From positions 1 to 64,000 of the forward strand of contig JBFLZR010000003.1 of the NCBI GenBank assembly GCA_040756055.1: 64,000 nt of DNA, in the 5' to 3' direction. The translations under genes and the position numbers were made by a program. Position 1 is the first letter of the stretch; each line of letters opens with the position of its first letter. This DNA is from Candidatus Zixiibacteriota bacterium (GTDB taxonomy: Bacteria; Zixibacteria; MSB-5A5; GN15; FEB-12). The notes beneath the pieces are model-generated. The model was not told the origin of the DNA. It made no database searches and saw only the letters and a list, made by a program, of their open reading frames with translations. Positions 39,042 through 49,664 of this stretch are shown piece after piece.

Positions 39042-40751
39042 ATGTTTAAAAGACAAGTTTTGATCGCGGCGGTCGTAGCCGCTCAGATAATGGCCGATTT
39101 CGCCCCGGCCCGTGGACAAACCCAACAGCCGCAAATGGCGCCCCTCAAACCAAAAATCGAGAGAGAATTGCCTCCCGGCAGAGGTTTCATCCCGCCGTTG
39201 AGAGACCTATCTCATCTCGATGGAGCCAGCGCTCAGCTGACGGCGCTACCGACAGCCCTGCCGACCAGTTTCGATTGGCGCACTTCAGGCATGATCACCT
39301 CGGTCAAAAACCAGAGCAGCTGCGGTTCCTGTTATGCTTTCGCGGGGCTCGGTAATCTCGAAGCCTTGATGCTGATTGACGGCGCCGGCACATACGACTT
39401 CTCCGAAAACTACGCCAAGGAATGCAATTTCTATCAGTCCAGTTGTGGCGGTGGCACCTACGAGTATGTCGTCAATCTGTTTTCCCAGCAAGGCGCCGTT
39501 TTGGAGGCGTGCAATCCGTATGTTGCGGCCGATGTCGCCTGCAACAGCAGTTGTCCGAAAATTAAGACCATTCTCGACTGGTGCATCATTTCCGATGACG
39601 CCGTACCAACCGCGACCGACCTCAAGCAGTATATCTACGATCACGGCCCGGTGTACACTACGCTTTATGCCGGCGATGGCGCTGCACCTTCGTGGGAAAC
39701 TGAATACAACAATTACGACGGTTCATACACGCTGTACTACACCGGCACCAATACTCCAAATCACGCGGTTCTGATTGTCGGATGGGATGATGCCCTCACG
39801 CACGCAGGTGGGACCGGTGGCTGGATCGTCAAAAACAGCTGGGGTACCGGATGGGGCGGTACCTGCGGCTACGGTACCGAGAGAGGATATTTTACAATCG
39901 CCTATGGATCGGCGAGTATAGGCAAGTTCTCGTCCTACTCCACGGCATGGCAGGACTACGATGCTACCGGAGAACTTCTGTACTACGATGAGGCCGGCGC
40001 AAGTGCCAACTGGGGTTTCACAAACCCTACCGCCTGGGGACTCTGCGGTTTCACAACCACAATTACCGCCTATCTCAATCGTGTCGAGTTCTGGACGAAC
40101 GATATTACCACTGATGTTGACGTTTATGTTTATGATGATTTTGACGGTAACAGTCCCTCGAACCTGCTTGGCAGCAAGCTCAACCTCTCGTTCACGGAAG
40201 CGGGTTACCACTCGGTGGTGCTGGATTCCCCGCCACTGGTCCCCGCAGGAGAGGACATTTTTGTCGTTGTCAAAATTACCAATGATAGCTACGGAAACCC
40301 GATTTGTGCCGACGGTGACGGATATACGGAAAACGGTCTCACCTACATGAGTCCTACCGGGACCAACGGTAGCTGGTGGGAGATGGGCGCCGGCTACGGC
40401 GTGGATGTGGCCATACGCGCGCGCACCAGCGGTACGATGGATGTTTATGACTCCGAACCCGATCAGCTTCCCACCCAATTCCGGCTTGGCAAGAACTACC
40501 CGAATCCGTTTAATCCCTCCACGATTATCGAGTACTCGCTGACCAGCCGGGCAACGGTTAAGCTGGATGTTTATAATGTTCTCGGGCAGAAGATAAAGAC
40601 TCTCGTAGATGCCACCATGCCCGCCGGCAACCATTCGGTTGTCTGGAATGGCACCGATGATTCCGGCAATCCGGTAGCCTCTGGAATGTATCTCTATCAG
40701 ATTCAAGCCGGAGTCCAGACCGAAACCCGGAAAATGCTCCTGCTCAAGTAA
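39042..40751 (+). CDS. Secreted papain-like (C1A) cysteine protease with sorting tail
   Basis: AGGAG precedes the ATG at good spacing. The 569-residue protein has a signal peptide, a C1A domain (about 80-300) with oxyanion Gln and catalytic Cys in VKNQSSCGSCYAF, His in NHAVLIVGWDD and Asn in VKNSWGTGWGG, then a lectin-like beta-sandwich (about 310-470; DVDVYVYDDFDGNSPSNLLGS) and the sorting tail (NYPNPFNPSTIIEYSL...RKMLLLK). All catalytic residues are present, so it should be an active secreted protease. Confidence 0.93.
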   Translation: MFKRQVLIAAVVAAQIMADFAPARGQTQQPQMAPLKPKIERELPPGRGFIPPLRDLSHLDGASAQLTALPTALPTSFDWRTSGMITSVKNQSSCGSCYAFAGLGNLEALMLIDGAGTYDFSENYAKECNFYQSSCGGGTYEYVVNLFSQQGAVLEACNPYVAADVACNSSCPKIKTILDWCIISDDAVPTATDLKQYIYDHGPVYTTLYAGDGAAPSWETEYNNYDGSYTLYYTGTNTPNHAVLIVGWDDALTHAGGTGGWIVKNSWGTGWGGTCGYGTERGYFTIAYGSASIGKFSSYSTAWQDYDATGELLYYDEAGASANWGFTNPTAWGLCGFTTTITAYLNRVEFWTNDITTDVDVYVYDDFDGNSPSNLLGSKLNLSFTEAGYHSVVLDSPPLVPAGEDIFVVVKITNDSYGNPICADGDGYTENGLTYMSPTGTNGSWWEMGAGYGVDVAIRARTSGTMDVYDSEPDQLPTQFRLGKNYPNPFNPSTIIEYSLTSRATVKLDVYNVLGQKIKTLVDATMPAGNHSVVWNGTDDSGNPVASGMYLYQIQAGVQTETRKMLLLK

Positions 40752-40773
40752 AATGCAGCAAATGACAGTCAAG

Positions 40774-40804
40774 GGACCGGAACTTCGCTTGTTCCGGTCC
40801 TTCA
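40774..40804 (+). terminator. Terminator after the papain-like gene
   Basis: A 10-bp perfect stem GGACCGGAAC/GTTCCGGTCC with a 7-nt loop lies 23 bases past the stop. The following T-run is short. Confidence 0.6.
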
Positions 40805-40845
40805 CTCAGGGTAACTTCCTTTGATTTTCTCGTTGAATAGTATTA

Positions 40846-40874
40846 TTGTCTCAACAGTGACTTTCGTGTATAAT
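40846..40874 (+). promoter_or_regulatory. Promoter for the M1-like peptidase gene
   Basis: TTGTCT (40846-40851), 17-base spacer and a perfect TATAAT (40869-40874), about 100 bases before the ATG at 40975. Confidence 0.55.
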
Positions 40875-40974
40875 ACATGAAATCGCGGGGTAGGGTAAGC
40901 CCGGAAGGACCGGACAGGTTGGCCCGGCGGGCAGTGACATTCGAAAATAGCAGCACTAATCCAAGAGGTCCCAA

Positions 40975-43119
40975 ATGCTTAAGAAATTCTGGTTAATATC
41001 CACAGCCACGATGCTTGCTTCGGCGATTCTGGCGGTCGCGCAAGTGGGGGCTGCCTCCGAAGTCGTTTTTGACAACCACGATATCAAGCTCGTTTTGGAC
41101 GTACCCACTCACAGCGCCACCATCGAAGACAGCGGTCGTATGAACGTAAGTGCCGGTGGAAATATGTTCATGATTGCCGGCGGAGCGAAAATAGAGAATT
41201 TCACGGTCGATGGCCAACCTGTCGAATACGTTTCCGTGAAACTCGCCGACACGGCGACTCTCACGGATAATTATCGAGGTAGTCTTCCGGAAATCGAAGC
41301 CGCTGGCCAGCCGCTACTGGTTTTCTTTGACTGGGGTCAGCAGGCAAACGTGGAGTTCACCATAAAATTCTCGGCCGAGTTTTTCGAAGATGTCGAAAAT
41401 ATCCGGTTCTCCAATGAGAAGGTCGGCACCGAGGTCACGGGCACGATTCTCGATAAGGGGGCCTATCTCAGTTCGGATGCTTACTTTTATCCTCAGGGAA
41501 GTGAAGACCTCGTTGCCTTCAAACTCACAGCCGATGTACCTGAGAAGTGGGAAGCGGTAAGCGATGGCAACAAGCTTTCCAGCGAGACCGCCGGCGGCCG
41601 CAAGGTTCAGACGTGGGGAAATCCATACAAGTGTGATGGCGCTACGTTTTTCGCGTCTCATTTTGAGGTCGGCACTCTTGGCATTGAGGACGGTGTTTCT
41701 GTCACGTGTTATTTCTTTCCCGAGGATGTAGCTCTCATGAACAATTACCTTTCAGCGTCGGCCAACTATATCCGGATGTACAACGACTTGATCGGGCCGT
41801 ATCCGTTCAAAAACTTCAGTGTCGTCGAGAATTTCTTCCCGACTGGCTATGGAATGCCGGGCTGGACTCTTCTGGGTCAGCAGGTTCTCAGGTTGCCGTT
41901 TATCATTCGGACATCGCTCGGTCATGAGGTTCTCCACAACTGGTGGGGCAACTCGGTGTATGTGGACTATGACCGCGGCAACTGGTGCGAAGGAGCCACC
42001 GTCTACGGCGCGGATTACCGCTACAAGCTCAGTGAGGCGCCCGATGAAGCGCTTGATTATCGCAAGGATATTCTCAAGCAGTACATCAGCTATGTCAATG
42101 CCGAGAACGATTTCCCGCTGCGCGCTTTCAAGTCGCGTACCAGCCCCGACACACGGACTATCGGCTACAATAAGGCCATGATGGTCTACCACATGATCGA
42201 AGAGCAGATCGGCTCTGACGCGTTCTTCGCCGCCTGGAAGCTCATTTACAACCGAAACCTTGGCAAAAAAGTCTCGTGGGAGGACTGGATTGCCGCTTTC
42301 GAGGAAACATCGGGTCAGAAGATCTACTACATTATTCCGCAATGGATCGACCGTGCGGGGGCGCCGAAGCTCGATGTGGCCGTTATCGAAAGCAAGCACA
42401 AACCGGAGAAGAAGACTTACGAAGTCAAGCTGCAGCTGGGACAGATGCCGGGCGACAAGTATTTGCTTCAGGTGCCGATACGTTTCTCAGGGACAGATTA
42501 CGTGTTCGATACTACCGTGACGCTCAGGGACGACAAGACTACTTTCAAATTCAAGGTGCCAGACGTTGCGACTTCGGTTGAAGTCGACCCGGATTATCAC
42601 CTTTTCCGCAGGCTCTATCCGGAAGAGGTTGAGCCCGTTGTTTCGGCGATTCTGGGCAATCCGAACAAACAGTTCGTGACGTACAAGGCTGACGATAGTG
42701 TCCGGGCTCTGTTTCGCGTATTTGGAACGAATCTGACCGAAGACTCGGTGTCGGTAGCGTCAGCCGAGATTCTCGCTACGATGGGCGGTGACGAATACGC
42801 GGTGCTTCTGAATCCAAGTGAGGTGCCCGAATATCTCAAGAACTCGGTTATCGTCAAGGGTGACTCTGTCAAAGTGGACGGTGTCAGTTATTCGCGGCTT
42901 GGCCACACGGTTGTAGCGGCCGGGCAGGACCTCGGGCAGGTGAAGAAGTACCTGGTGATAATCACCCACGCCTATCCCGACCTTCCACGGCTGGGGCAAC
43001 TTCTCATGCACTATGGCCGGTATTCTTACCTGGTCTTCAACGGTACGCGCAATGTGGCCAAGGGTCAGTGGAAACCGGAAACCTCCCCGCTCAAAATACA
43101 ACTCACTCAGACCAACTGA
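40975..43119 (+). CDS. Exported M1-like (gluzincin) metallopeptidase
   Basis: The 714-residue protein has a signal peptide (MLASAILAVAQVGAAS), an N-terminal beta-sandwich domain, and a zinc site of the M1 type: HEVLHNWWGN followed about 18 residues later by NWCEGATVY (third ligand Glu). The GxMEN substrate motif of classical aminopeptidases is replaced by GYGMPGWTLLG, so the specificity should differ. A C-terminal helical and beta region (about 480-714) is unassigned. It has no sorting tail and is probably periplasmic. Confidence 0.82.
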   Translation: MLKKFWLISTATMLASAILAVAQVGAASEVVFDNHDIKLVLDVPTHSATIEDSGRMNVSAGGNMFMIAGGAKIENFTVDGQPVEYVSVKLADTATLTDNYRGSLPEIEAAGQPLLVFFDWGQQANVEFTIKFSAEFFEDVENIRFSNEKVGTEVTGTILDKGAYLSSDAYFYPQGSEDLVAFKLTADVPEKWEAVSDGNKLSSETAGGRKVQTWGNPYKCDGATFFASHFEVGTLGIEDGVSVTCYFFPEDVALMNNYLSASANYIRMYNDLIGPYPFKNFSVVENFFPTGYGMPGWTLLGQQVLRLPFIIRTSLGHEVLHNWWGNSVYVDYDRGNWCEGATVYGADYRYKLSEAPDEALDYRKDILKQYISYVNAENDFPLRAFKSRTSPDTRTIGYNKAMMVYHMIEEQIGSDAFFAAWKLIYNRNLGKKVSWEDWIAAFEETSGQKIYYIIPQWIDRAGAPKLDVAVIESKHKPEKKTYEVKLQLGQMPGDKYLLQVPIRFSGTDYVFDTTVTLRDDKTTFKFKVPDVATSVEVDPDYHLFRRLYPEEVEPVVSAILGNPNKQFVTYKADDSVRALFRVFGTNLTEDSVSVASAEILATMGGDEYAVLLNPSEVPEYLKNSVIVKGDSVKVDGVSYSRLGHTVVAAGQDLGQVKKYLVIITHAYPDLPRLGQLLMHYGRYSYLVFNGTRNVAKGQWKPETSPLKIQLTQTN

Positions 43120-44918: not shown

Positions 44919-45088
44919 CTCATTCTGTTTTCATTGAAGATAGGCCAATTGTCTTTGAAGCGAAAGTAAAAGCCGGATTTTTTGTCGTATTCGCATGTCA
45001 GTTTGTTGGTTACAGGGATTTGGGTTCGTTTCCCATGCTTTGCATGGTTTTTGCCTGACGTAGTTTGTTGCAGCAGCGCAAACCCAGC

Positions 45089-45227
45089 ATTTGATGAATC
45101 AAATGCCTACCGGCAGCTTGCGTTGTCAAGCCCAAAGCGTGTTTGAGCCTGCCACCCGGCGAAGTGTTTCTGATATTTCCCTGTATTTCATTACTCATCA
45201 TATGATTGCATCGATTTGGGTTCGTTT
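45089..45227. repeat. Intergenic repeat family, copy A
   Basis: About 140 bp with key blocks ATCAAATG, CTACCGGCAG, GCCCAAAGC, TTTGAGCCTGCCACCCGGCG, ATTCATATGATTGCATCGATTTGGG. It is about 80 percent identical to copy B by eye. Confidence 0.7.
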
Positions 45228-45273
45228 CGTTATTTTAAACCCCTCACCCCAACCCTCTCCCTGAGGGCGAGGG
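45210..45273. repeat. Palindromic element, inverted match at 53688
   Basis: The block from GATTTGGGTTCGTTT through CCCTCACCCCAACCCTC and CCTGAGGGCGAGGG recurs in inverted orientation at 53688-53751 with only a few differences. It is a mobile or REP-like intergenic element. Confidence 0.6.
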
Positions 45274-45291
45274 AGGAAGAGAGGTGATGTC

Positions 45292-45432
45292 GCCTTTGAT
45301 AAATCAAATGGCTACCGGCAGCCTTTAATGTCAGGCCCAAAGCAAGTTTGAGCCTGCCACCCGGCGGAGAGTCTGTGAATATTCCCTGTATTTTATTGCT
45401 CGTCATATGATTGCATCGATTTGGGTTCGTTT
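45292..45432. repeat. Intergenic repeat family, copy B
   Basis: A second copy of the 140-bp element, in the same orientation as copy A and about 200 bases away. Only point differences and short indels separate the two. Confidence 0.7.
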
Positions 45433-45682
45433 AGTCATTTTTAGGGATCCTACAAATATGGGTATCAGGTTCGAAGCCGGTTGGCTGCCAGTGCTTAGCA
45501 GTATTTAGCGGTGCGTTATTCGGGCATTTCGTGGCAGAAAGACTCAAGCACGTCGGGCCGATTACATATCCTCGATAAATGATGTCCATACAACAGCAAT
45601 CAGCGGGGATTTTTGCCCTGATGTTGTAGTGAAAGTGCGGGGGGAGCTATGTAGTTATTTCCTGAGAAGGGAGAATACCATC

Positions 45683-46792
45683 TCACTCCCAGGGTGGGTT
45701 CTTGTGCTTTCTCAGGTACTCGAGCCAAGCGTGAATGCCGACTTCACGCACATAAGCCTCCACTCTTCTGAGCCCATCGCCGTAAATGGGATCCCTGCTT
45801 TCCCAAGTTTGAACCCTTAGCATGTTTGTCTCCTCATCCTCATATTTGCTGATTGCCAGTATGCCGGCATACTGGCAGCTTCCTTCAGTAAGTATAGAAG
45901 ACATATTGTGGTCGCCATTTTTGAACAGCCACACATGCATCAACTCGTGGCCCAAGGTCAGAATGAAGTCCTGGCGTGGCATTCCCTTGAGGACAAAGAT
46001 CTCAAAATCTTCGTGTGATATCACTCCGGCTAAAATGGACTCTTTGCGGTAGGAAGTATATCCCGCAGGGTCGTGCGGCATTGCTCCTTTCTGGCTGGTC
46101 AAGCTTGATCGATCTACAAGCCGAAGAGGAATTTTCTTCTCTCTGATTTCAATGCCGTAGGAAGCCAGATCTTCTATTATGTCGGCCATCAGGTCCTCAG
46201 CTTCTTTGATATCATTTACGGCCGATCTGAGACAGAGGCCGCAGACGTGTCTGCCGTCGGGATACGTGGTTCCCTCTCCGGTGGTCTGGGGAGCGATAGG
46301 GCAGCCGCAATATTCGCATATGGGATATTCGTCCCGGTGATGCTTGTGAAGGGTGTTTCCTCGCGGGTCAATTAGATACTTGTCGTAGAGCACTTCCCCG
46401 CACATGGCACAGCGCCGTCCAACGTGGTCATCATAACACTGTTGATGGTAGAGATTGGAGTCGACTTCTATATAATTGCCTTGGATCGGTTCGCCGCACC
46501 AGTCGCATTTGGGGACAAACAACTCAAAATAGCACACGCTATCATATATCTTTCCATTCTCGACATAAACCGGACCATTTTTGAGGTCGCCTCCACAGTT
46601 GGAGCAGAGAAAATGATCGGGATGATAGTATTTACCGTCGAATTCGATCCAATTGGCTTTAGATATTTTCTTGCCGCAATACTCGCAGATCTTATCGCCG
46701 GCATAGGTAGTGAAGGGTATAACCAAGAGTAATCCGAGGGCAATGGTCAGGACCGATGATGAGAGTTTTTTGCGGTTTGTCAGTTGGCTCAT
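45683..46792 (-). CDS. Secreted LIM-domain metallopeptidase, DA1-like
   Basis: The ATG at 46792 (MSQLTNRKKLSSSVLTIALG) is preferred because the earlier start would overlap the tRNA pseudogene. The 369-residue protein has a signal peptide, LIM-type zinc fingers (CEYCGKKI ... YYHPDHFLCSNC ... VCYFE; CDWCGEP ... YHQQCYDDHVGRRCAMC; further CEYCGCP and CGLCLR pairs), a helical linker, and a metallopeptidase domain LTLGHELMHVWLFKNG (HExxH 282-286) with TEGSCQYAGIL (Glu303 as third ligand). The LIM plus HExxH plus EG-CQ order is that of plant DA1 peptidases. A secreted bacterial version is unexpected. Confidence 0.8.
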   Translation of the reverse strand: MSQLTNRKKLSSSVLTIALGLLLVIPFTTYAGDKICEYCGKKISKANWIEFDGKYYHPDHFLCSNCGGDLKNGPVYVENGKIYDSVCYFELFVPKCDWCGEPIQGNYIEVDSNLYHQQCYDDHVGRRCAMCGEVLYDKYLIDPRGNTLHKHHRDEYPICEYCGCPIAPQTTGEGTTYPDGRHVCGLCLRSAVNDIKEAEDLMADIIEDLASYGIEIREKKIPLRLVDRSSLTSQKGAMPHDPAGYTSYRKESILAGVISHEDFEIFVLKGMPRQDFILTLGHELMHVWLFKNGDHNMSSILTEGSCQYAGILAISKYEDEETNMLRVQTWESRDPIYGDGLRRVEAYVREVGIHAWLEYLRKHKNPPWE

Positions 46793-46804: not shown

Positions 46805-46878
46805 ACTTTTCGGCAGCACTCGAACCTGCTACCCTCGGCTTAAAAAACAGATACTTTATCCGTGTGAGCTACGGGGGC
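46805..46878 (-). pseudogene. Decayed tRNA-Arg copy
   Basis: This segment aligns over its length with the intact tRNA-Arg at 49452-49525, but its acceptor 3' strand (CGAAAAG), D stem, anticodon stem and T stem no longer pair well. The anticodon loop now reads TTT instead of TCT. It lies in a ~195-bp duplication with matching flanking sequence. Confidence 0.75.
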
Positions 46879-47000
46879 ACACGTTGTGTGATTTATCGTG
46901 TTTCGGAGGGGAAACAGGCAAACCACGATTCCGCCCGAATGTAAGCTATTTGCCGGGAAATGGTCAAGATACAAAAATGGGGACGGGCAGATGGGGACAT
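46805..47000. repeat. Left copy of the tRNA-containing duplication
   Basis: About 196 bp matching 49452-49646: tRNA region plus 120 bp of its upstream flank, up to GGGGACAT. It includes the tRNA promoter with an 18-base spacer (46938-46967). Confidence 0.75.
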
Positions 47001-47156
47001 CTGCTGCGCACAATAATGGTTGGGAGAGGCTAAAGACGCCGTCAGTTCGCATCTCCAACTTCGTCGGCGACAGGAACTGACGGAACGGGGCCAGCAGACA
47101 AAGTGAGATGGAAAAAGGTTAGCCACCTTGGCCGTAATCGTGTCAAAACTCCGGGC

Positions 47157-49451: not shown

Positions 49452-49525
49452 TACCCCCGGCAGGACTCGAACCTGCTACCCTCTGCTTAGAAGGCAGATG
49501 CTCTATCCGGGTGAGCTACGGGGGC
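49452..49525 (-). tRNA. tRNA-Arg(TCT)
   Basis: Minus strand, 74 nt: acceptor GCCCCCG/CGGGGGT, D stem GCTC/GAGC, anticodon stem CTGC/GCAG with loop CTTCTAA (anticodon TCT), T stem GCAGG/CCTGC with TTCGAGT loop. No 3' CCA is encoded. Confidence 0.93.
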
Positions 49526-49586
49526 ACACACTTTGTGTGATTTATCGTGTTTCCGAGGGGAAACAGGCAAATCACGATTCCGCCCG

Positions 49587-49615
49587 AATGTAAGCTATTT
49601 GCCGGAAATGGTCAA
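49587..49615 (-). promoter_or_regulatory. tRNA-Arg promoter
   Basis: On the minus strand TTGACC (49610-49615), 17-base spacer, TACATT (49587-49592), about 61 nt before the tRNA. A GTTTCC/GGAAAC hairpin lies in the leader. Confidence 0.55.
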
Positions 49616-49664
49616 GATACAAAAATGGCAACGCGGATGGGGACATTTGGCGCGCACAGCGCAC

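Follow-up and report, generated by a model that had tools for sequence, protein, structure and literature searches.

A DA1-like LIM-peptidase protein with an export-like N-terminus in Candidatus Zixiibacteriota and its relatives across bacterial phyla

In plants, DA1 sets organ and seed size, and bacterial LIM-peptidase fusions have reportedly been described by Burroughs et al. 2011. Arabidopsis DA1 has the peptidase motif HEMMHX15EE and is a latent peptidase in whose activation the LIM-like region is involved; the substitution C274Y, at a LIM-like zinc ligand, abolishes peptidase activity, and a cysteine-switch-like mechanism has been discussed by Dong et al. (PMC5322733). In a passage of the same 2017 paper that cites Burroughs et al. 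2011, the C-terminal region of DA1 is described as highly similar to predicted proteins of Roseiflexus (PMC5322733), so that the existence of bacterial LIM-DA1 homologues had already been pointed out. What we add here is the breadth of the family, its exported character, the modular number of its fingers, and an invariant Cys4 finger next to the peptidase.

The gene considered here lies in the window, by which we mean the whole 64,000-nucleotide stretch of DNA that was analysed, and its host belongs to the phylum Candidatus Zixiibacteriota. It is a minus-strand open reading frame with an ATG start at 46792 and its stop at 45683. The original prediction had described an open reading frame carrying HELMHVW (residues 282–288) and TEGSCQ (residues 302–307) with LIM fingers ahead of them, and all of these are present. 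The boundaries of the zinc modules were taken from an alignment of 27 homologues, and the parts of the gene are as follows.

45683–46792, minus strand: LIM-DA1 peptidase gene, 369 aa plus stop; homologues in 44/132 genomes of the phylum
46700–46792, minus strand: signal-peptide-like N-terminus, residues 1–31, from the sequence and the pattern in homologues; heuristic
46517–46687, minus strand: canonical LIM domain, residues 36–92; Pfam LIM match and superposition of the model on LIM structures
46337–46507, minus strand: LIM-like double zinc module, residues 96–152; C96/C99/H116/C119 and C128/C131/H149/H152
46232–46318, minus strand: Cys4 finger adjoining the peptidase, residues 159–187; C159/C162/C184/C187, in 102/102 members
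45686–46216, minus strand: DA1-like gluzincin peptidase domain, residues 193–369; Pfam DA1-like match and model aligned to M1 aminopeptidases
45935–45949, minus strand: HELMH zinc-binding/catalytic motif, residues 282–286; H282, E283 and H286 invariant
45872–45889, minus strand: TEGSCQ third-ligand segment, residues 302–307; E303 and G304 invariant
45782–45784, minus strand: Tyr337 of a YGxGxR motif, invariant; putative role by analogy with gluzincins

The domain order is LIM, LIM-like, Cys4 and an HExxH-X16-E peptidase, with five CxxC-type zinc modules counted N-terminal to the HELMH active site. The whole protein scores 61 bits against the Pfam LIM profile (curated cut-off 22.9); by stretch, residues 36–92 reach 50.9 bits, and the match from residue 96 onward is weak, its 21.8 bits lying just over the cut-off when taken together with its neighbour. 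Residues 36–87 fit the double zinc pattern of LIM (PF00412), C-x2-C-x17-H-x2-H/C-x2-C-x2-C-x(16-21)-C/D-x2-C, and residues 96–152 comprise two single-zinc modules with a linker longer than in a true LIM. The several LIM fingers of the original prediction therefore stand as zinc modules, but are refined to one canonical LIM, a LIM-like pair and one Cys4 finger. The Pfam DA1-like profile (PF12315) matches at 44.7 bits against a curated cut-off of 25 and has LIM upstream of it, in agreement with the order that had been predicted from plant DA1. The HELMH-X15-TE spacing makes this an HExxH-X16-E gluzincin site, a spacing found in 100 of the 114 family members that carry the motif. A chance resemblance is excluded, because the zinc ligands are conserved among relatives of only 23–52% identity. 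Other peptidase families (M78, SprT, BSP, DUF6782) gave weak profile matches in at most five members and were rejected. A search of NCBIfam returned no model for the protein, and when a second LIM protein was sought in the source genome this was the only one found.

Like the plant DA1/DAR ubiquitin-activated peptidases the protein has LIM, then LIM-like, then gluzincin, and it shares with Arabidopsis DA1 the HExMH-X15-[TE]E spacing as well as a DA1-like match over the curated cut-off. Unlike them it is a bacterial protein with an export-like N-terminus and an additional Cys4 module, which makes five zinc modules. The LIM-DA1-like proteins of Roseiflexus are also bacterial and have a CxxC/H-rich LIM-like region before the same peptidase domain, but belong to another phylum, and the likeness is taken from their published description.

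An AlphaFold2 model was made from a 27-row alignment (pLDDT 90.4, pTM 0.77) and compared using Foldseek and VIA-align, and the predicted fold is, with confidence, one of LIM domains plus an M1-type gluzincin domain. Residues 33–94 superpose on LIM domains (VIA-align Z 9.7, rmsd 1.4 Å, 61 residues), and residues 193–369 align to M1 aminopeptidases such as tricorn interacting factor F3 (PDB 1z1w) and E. coli PepN, with which they share the gluzincin fold (VIA-align Z 11.3, 2.7 Å over 152 residues, 14% identity in the aligned region). The M1 enzymes differ in the spacing of the glutamate that is their third ligand, HExxH-X18-E, and in the M1 domains that surround their catalytic fold, and the M1 profile PF01433 gave no match to the protein at E <= 1. 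In LIM fold and zinc-ligand pattern the N-terminal part resembles the eukaryotic tandem LIM proteins PINCH, paxillin and LMO2 (phmmer E 5e-11 to paxillin LIM2/3), although these act as adaptors in the cytoplasm or nucleus and have no peptidase. A sequence search of solved structures matched the LIM part alone, with none combining LIM and peptidase, and a DA1 peptidase was absent among the solved structures matched here.

LIM domains had been supposed to be rare in bacteria, and for the LIM-DA1 proteins this does not hold, as homologues occur in 44 of the 132 genomes of Candidatus Zixiibacteriota, about a third, and in many other phyla. Of the 27 aligned homologues, 26 matched the DA1-like profile (E <= 0.01) and 24 matched LIM. 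A one-motif scan of 84,980 species genomes yielded 91 relatives, with records that include Calditrichota, Fidelibacterota, Latescibacterota, Ignavibacteriota, Nitrospirota, Thermodesulfobacteriota, Armatimonadota, Spirochaetota, Fusobacteriota, Bacteroidota and Eiseniibacteriota. Within the phylum of a cyanobacterial match the family was found in 14 of 292 sampled genomes, and within the class of an Ignavibacteria-labelled match there were strong matches (E below 1e-70) in 13 of 197. The family thus spans over ten phyla besides Candidatus Zixiibacteriota, the individual taxon labels being liable to error since most of these records are metagenome bins. Genome contigs queried with the single protein gave no relatives, while an alignment-based scan of them succeeded. 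No relative was present in viral contigs or plasmids, and a phage or plasmid origin was rejected.

Conservation was followed in 102 distinct members gathered partly via the HExxH motif, a collection that inflates the count for HExxH itself and leaves the cysteines, the positions distant from W288, and Y337 unbiased. Unchanged in all 102 are H282, E283, H286, W288, E303, G304 and Y337, together with the cysteines C131, C159, C162, C184 and C187. The invariance of these residues suggests that the peptidase is catalytically competent, and Y337 is, by analogy with gluzincins, a candidate transition-state residue. Further from the active site, 28 of the 102 have gaps at C63, C66 and C87, in the latter half of the first LIM, that LIM is wholly absent in members L019 and L028, and the CxxC pairs ahead of the active site number from 2 to 13 per member; distal fingers have been gained and lost over the family, in which the distal LIM is often incomplete. 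Set against these variable distal fingers, the invariance of the peptidase-proximal finger indicates that it is as constrained as the active site.

The signal peptide was judged by eye and with a hydropathy heuristic. Residues 1–31 have a basic n-region (RKK) followed by a hydrophobic core and a possible cleavage site, TYA-GD, and this export-like pattern is common to essentially all close homologues. The heuristic assigns an export signal to 89 of the 102 members, with 8 clearly without one and 5 ambiguous, and on the family tree the lack is limited to a few branches and requires about four changes. The members without a signal peptide (L107, L121, L137, L138, L147, L172, L174 and L175) come from Nitrospirota, cyanobacterial-phylum, Fusobacteriota and Bacteroidota records and are presumably cytosolic. 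It is possible that the N-terminus is a signal anchor instead of a cleaved signal peptide. Of the secreted protein originally predicted, the export-like N-terminus stands but full secretion does not, and "exported" is the better word: no C-terminal sorting domain was matched in this protein, which, unlike its papain-like neighbour described below, is for this reason more likely to be periplasmic than fully secreted. It is unusual to find long reduced-cysteine zinc fingers in a compartment other than the cytoplasm, and we have counted this, along with the eight members that clearly lack a signal peptide, against reading the protein as an exported protease.

Two more exported proteases are encoded near the gene, at 39042–43116 of the window. 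One is a papain-like protease that carries both lectin-like and C-terminal sorting domains; the other is M1-like and falls slightly short of the Pfam cut-off, and its gene is also near LIM-DA1 in two genomes of the same genus. tRNA-Arg(TCT) and its flank are present in a degenerate copy (46811–47012; 86–93% identical) directly upstream of the LIM-DA1 gene. An intact copy (49458–49658) lies 2.6 kb from it, separated by genes for a cupredoxin, DUF5777 and YceI, and the pair suggests an old duplication or insertion at a tRNA site. In a same-genus genome the LIM-DA1 gene is preceded, at a distance of about 1.25 kb, by tRNA-Arg(TCT). In the intergenic region 45007–45441 an interspersed repeat with the core TGATTGCATCGATTTGGGTTCGTTTC is present in two or three incomplete copies; the source genome has 58 pieces of it, and it has no Rfam match. 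In the subfamily to which the window's gene belongs, the analysis of gene neighbourhoods gave no conserved partner beyond its own genus, and no conserved neighbour names a substrate. Members of a distant DA1 subfamily (L052, L053, L055–L060, L062) carry the motif HEIxHAW and some six modules of the Cys4 type. Their conserved operon comprises genes for an exported protein (RILIPMDNSQTDHLKAYG...), for a TIM-barrel sugar-isomerase-like protein and for the DA1 protein, to which a PIG-L-type deacetylase is added in several; these products were named by eye.

From the domain order, the conserved active site, the predicted fold and the export-like N-terminus, we propose that the protein is probably a zinc endopeptidase of the DA1-like (LIM-gluzincin) family that is exported and most likely stays in the periplasm. 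In this model the protein would leave the cytoplasm through Sec and fold around six zincs, five structural and one catalytic. The Cys4 finger beside the peptidase would belong integrally to the catalytic unit, the finger stack would scaffold the catalytic domain, and the variable distal LIM modules may bind or position a polypeptide substrate. Envelope proteins would be cleaved without a ubiquitin signal, and activity would be set by substrate presentation or by metal and redox state. The loss of activity in plant DA1 C274Y agrees with fingers that are integral to the bacterial peptidase.

The LIM stack could instead be autoinhibitory, making the protein a latent zymogen that is freed by zinc loss, finger oxidation or proteolytic trimming in the envelope. 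The latency of plant DA1, its activation via the LIM-like region and the cysteine-switch-like mechanism discussed for it (PMC5322733) are in keeping with this, and cysteine-rich fingers would face an oxidising compartment; however, a distal module number as variable as 2 to 13 CxxC pairs, and the members that lack the first LIM altogether, would be odd for a required inhibitor, and every candidate switch cysteine outside the zinc-ligand positions varies between members (C306 is Cys in 73 of 102), so we think autoinhibition unlikely. An envelope zinc-bound scaffold or metal-storage protein that retains the gluzincin fold would fit the wealth of zinc ligands, the lack of a known substrate and of a conserved operon partner in this subfamily, but such a use would not require E283, the zinc histidines, the glutamate ligand or Y337, which are invariant in all 102 members, and we consider it very improbable, notwithstanding that a collection based on HExxH would under-sample members that had lost the motif. 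Nor do we give much more than passing credence to a peptidase of another HExxH family (M78/ImmA-IrrE, SprT-like or M1) with a convergent likeness to DA1, for which the weak M78 match of 11.7 bits and the structural match to M1 might speak. The profile comparison, named beforehand as the point on which the assignment could fall, does not place the peptidase elsewhere. M78 is below its Pfam cut-off and was rejected whereas DA1-like is well above its own, the M1 spacing is X18 and not the X16 of the family, and the LIM order is common to this protein and DA1.

For the exported zinc endopeptidase that we favour, regulation most likely differs from that in plants, as no UIM was matched and no ubiquitin or E2 was found. 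The UIM families gave nothing at E <= 1, in a search whose HMMER filters can miss short motifs, and ahead of the first LIM there is only a 35-residue hydrophobic leader; the search of the source genome for ubiquitin and E2 was uncontrolled, in that no control genome gave a signal. In these respects the protein is unlike plant DA1/DAR, which carries ubiquitin-interacting motifs (UIMs) at its N-terminus, and the plant route of ubiquitin activation most likely does not apply to the bacterial enzyme. We suggest tentatively, as an idea that may well prove wrong, that the LIM-like/Cys4-gluzincin unit arose long ago as a protease of the bacterial envelope, that plant DA1 descends from it as a cytosolic form which gained its UIMs later, and that finger-dependent activation predates ubiquitin control and is mechanically independent of it.

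These results suggest an extracytoplasmic use of LIM domains in roughly one in three genomes of the phylum. For asking how the LIM-like region controls the peptidase of plant DA1, a bacterial relative that is small and has no ubiquitin motifs, and whose peptidase-proximal finger is as invariant as the active site, offers a tractable system; if the bacterial ancestry is true, the bacterial enzyme would be a minimal system for the control of a DA1 peptidase by LIM-like fingers.
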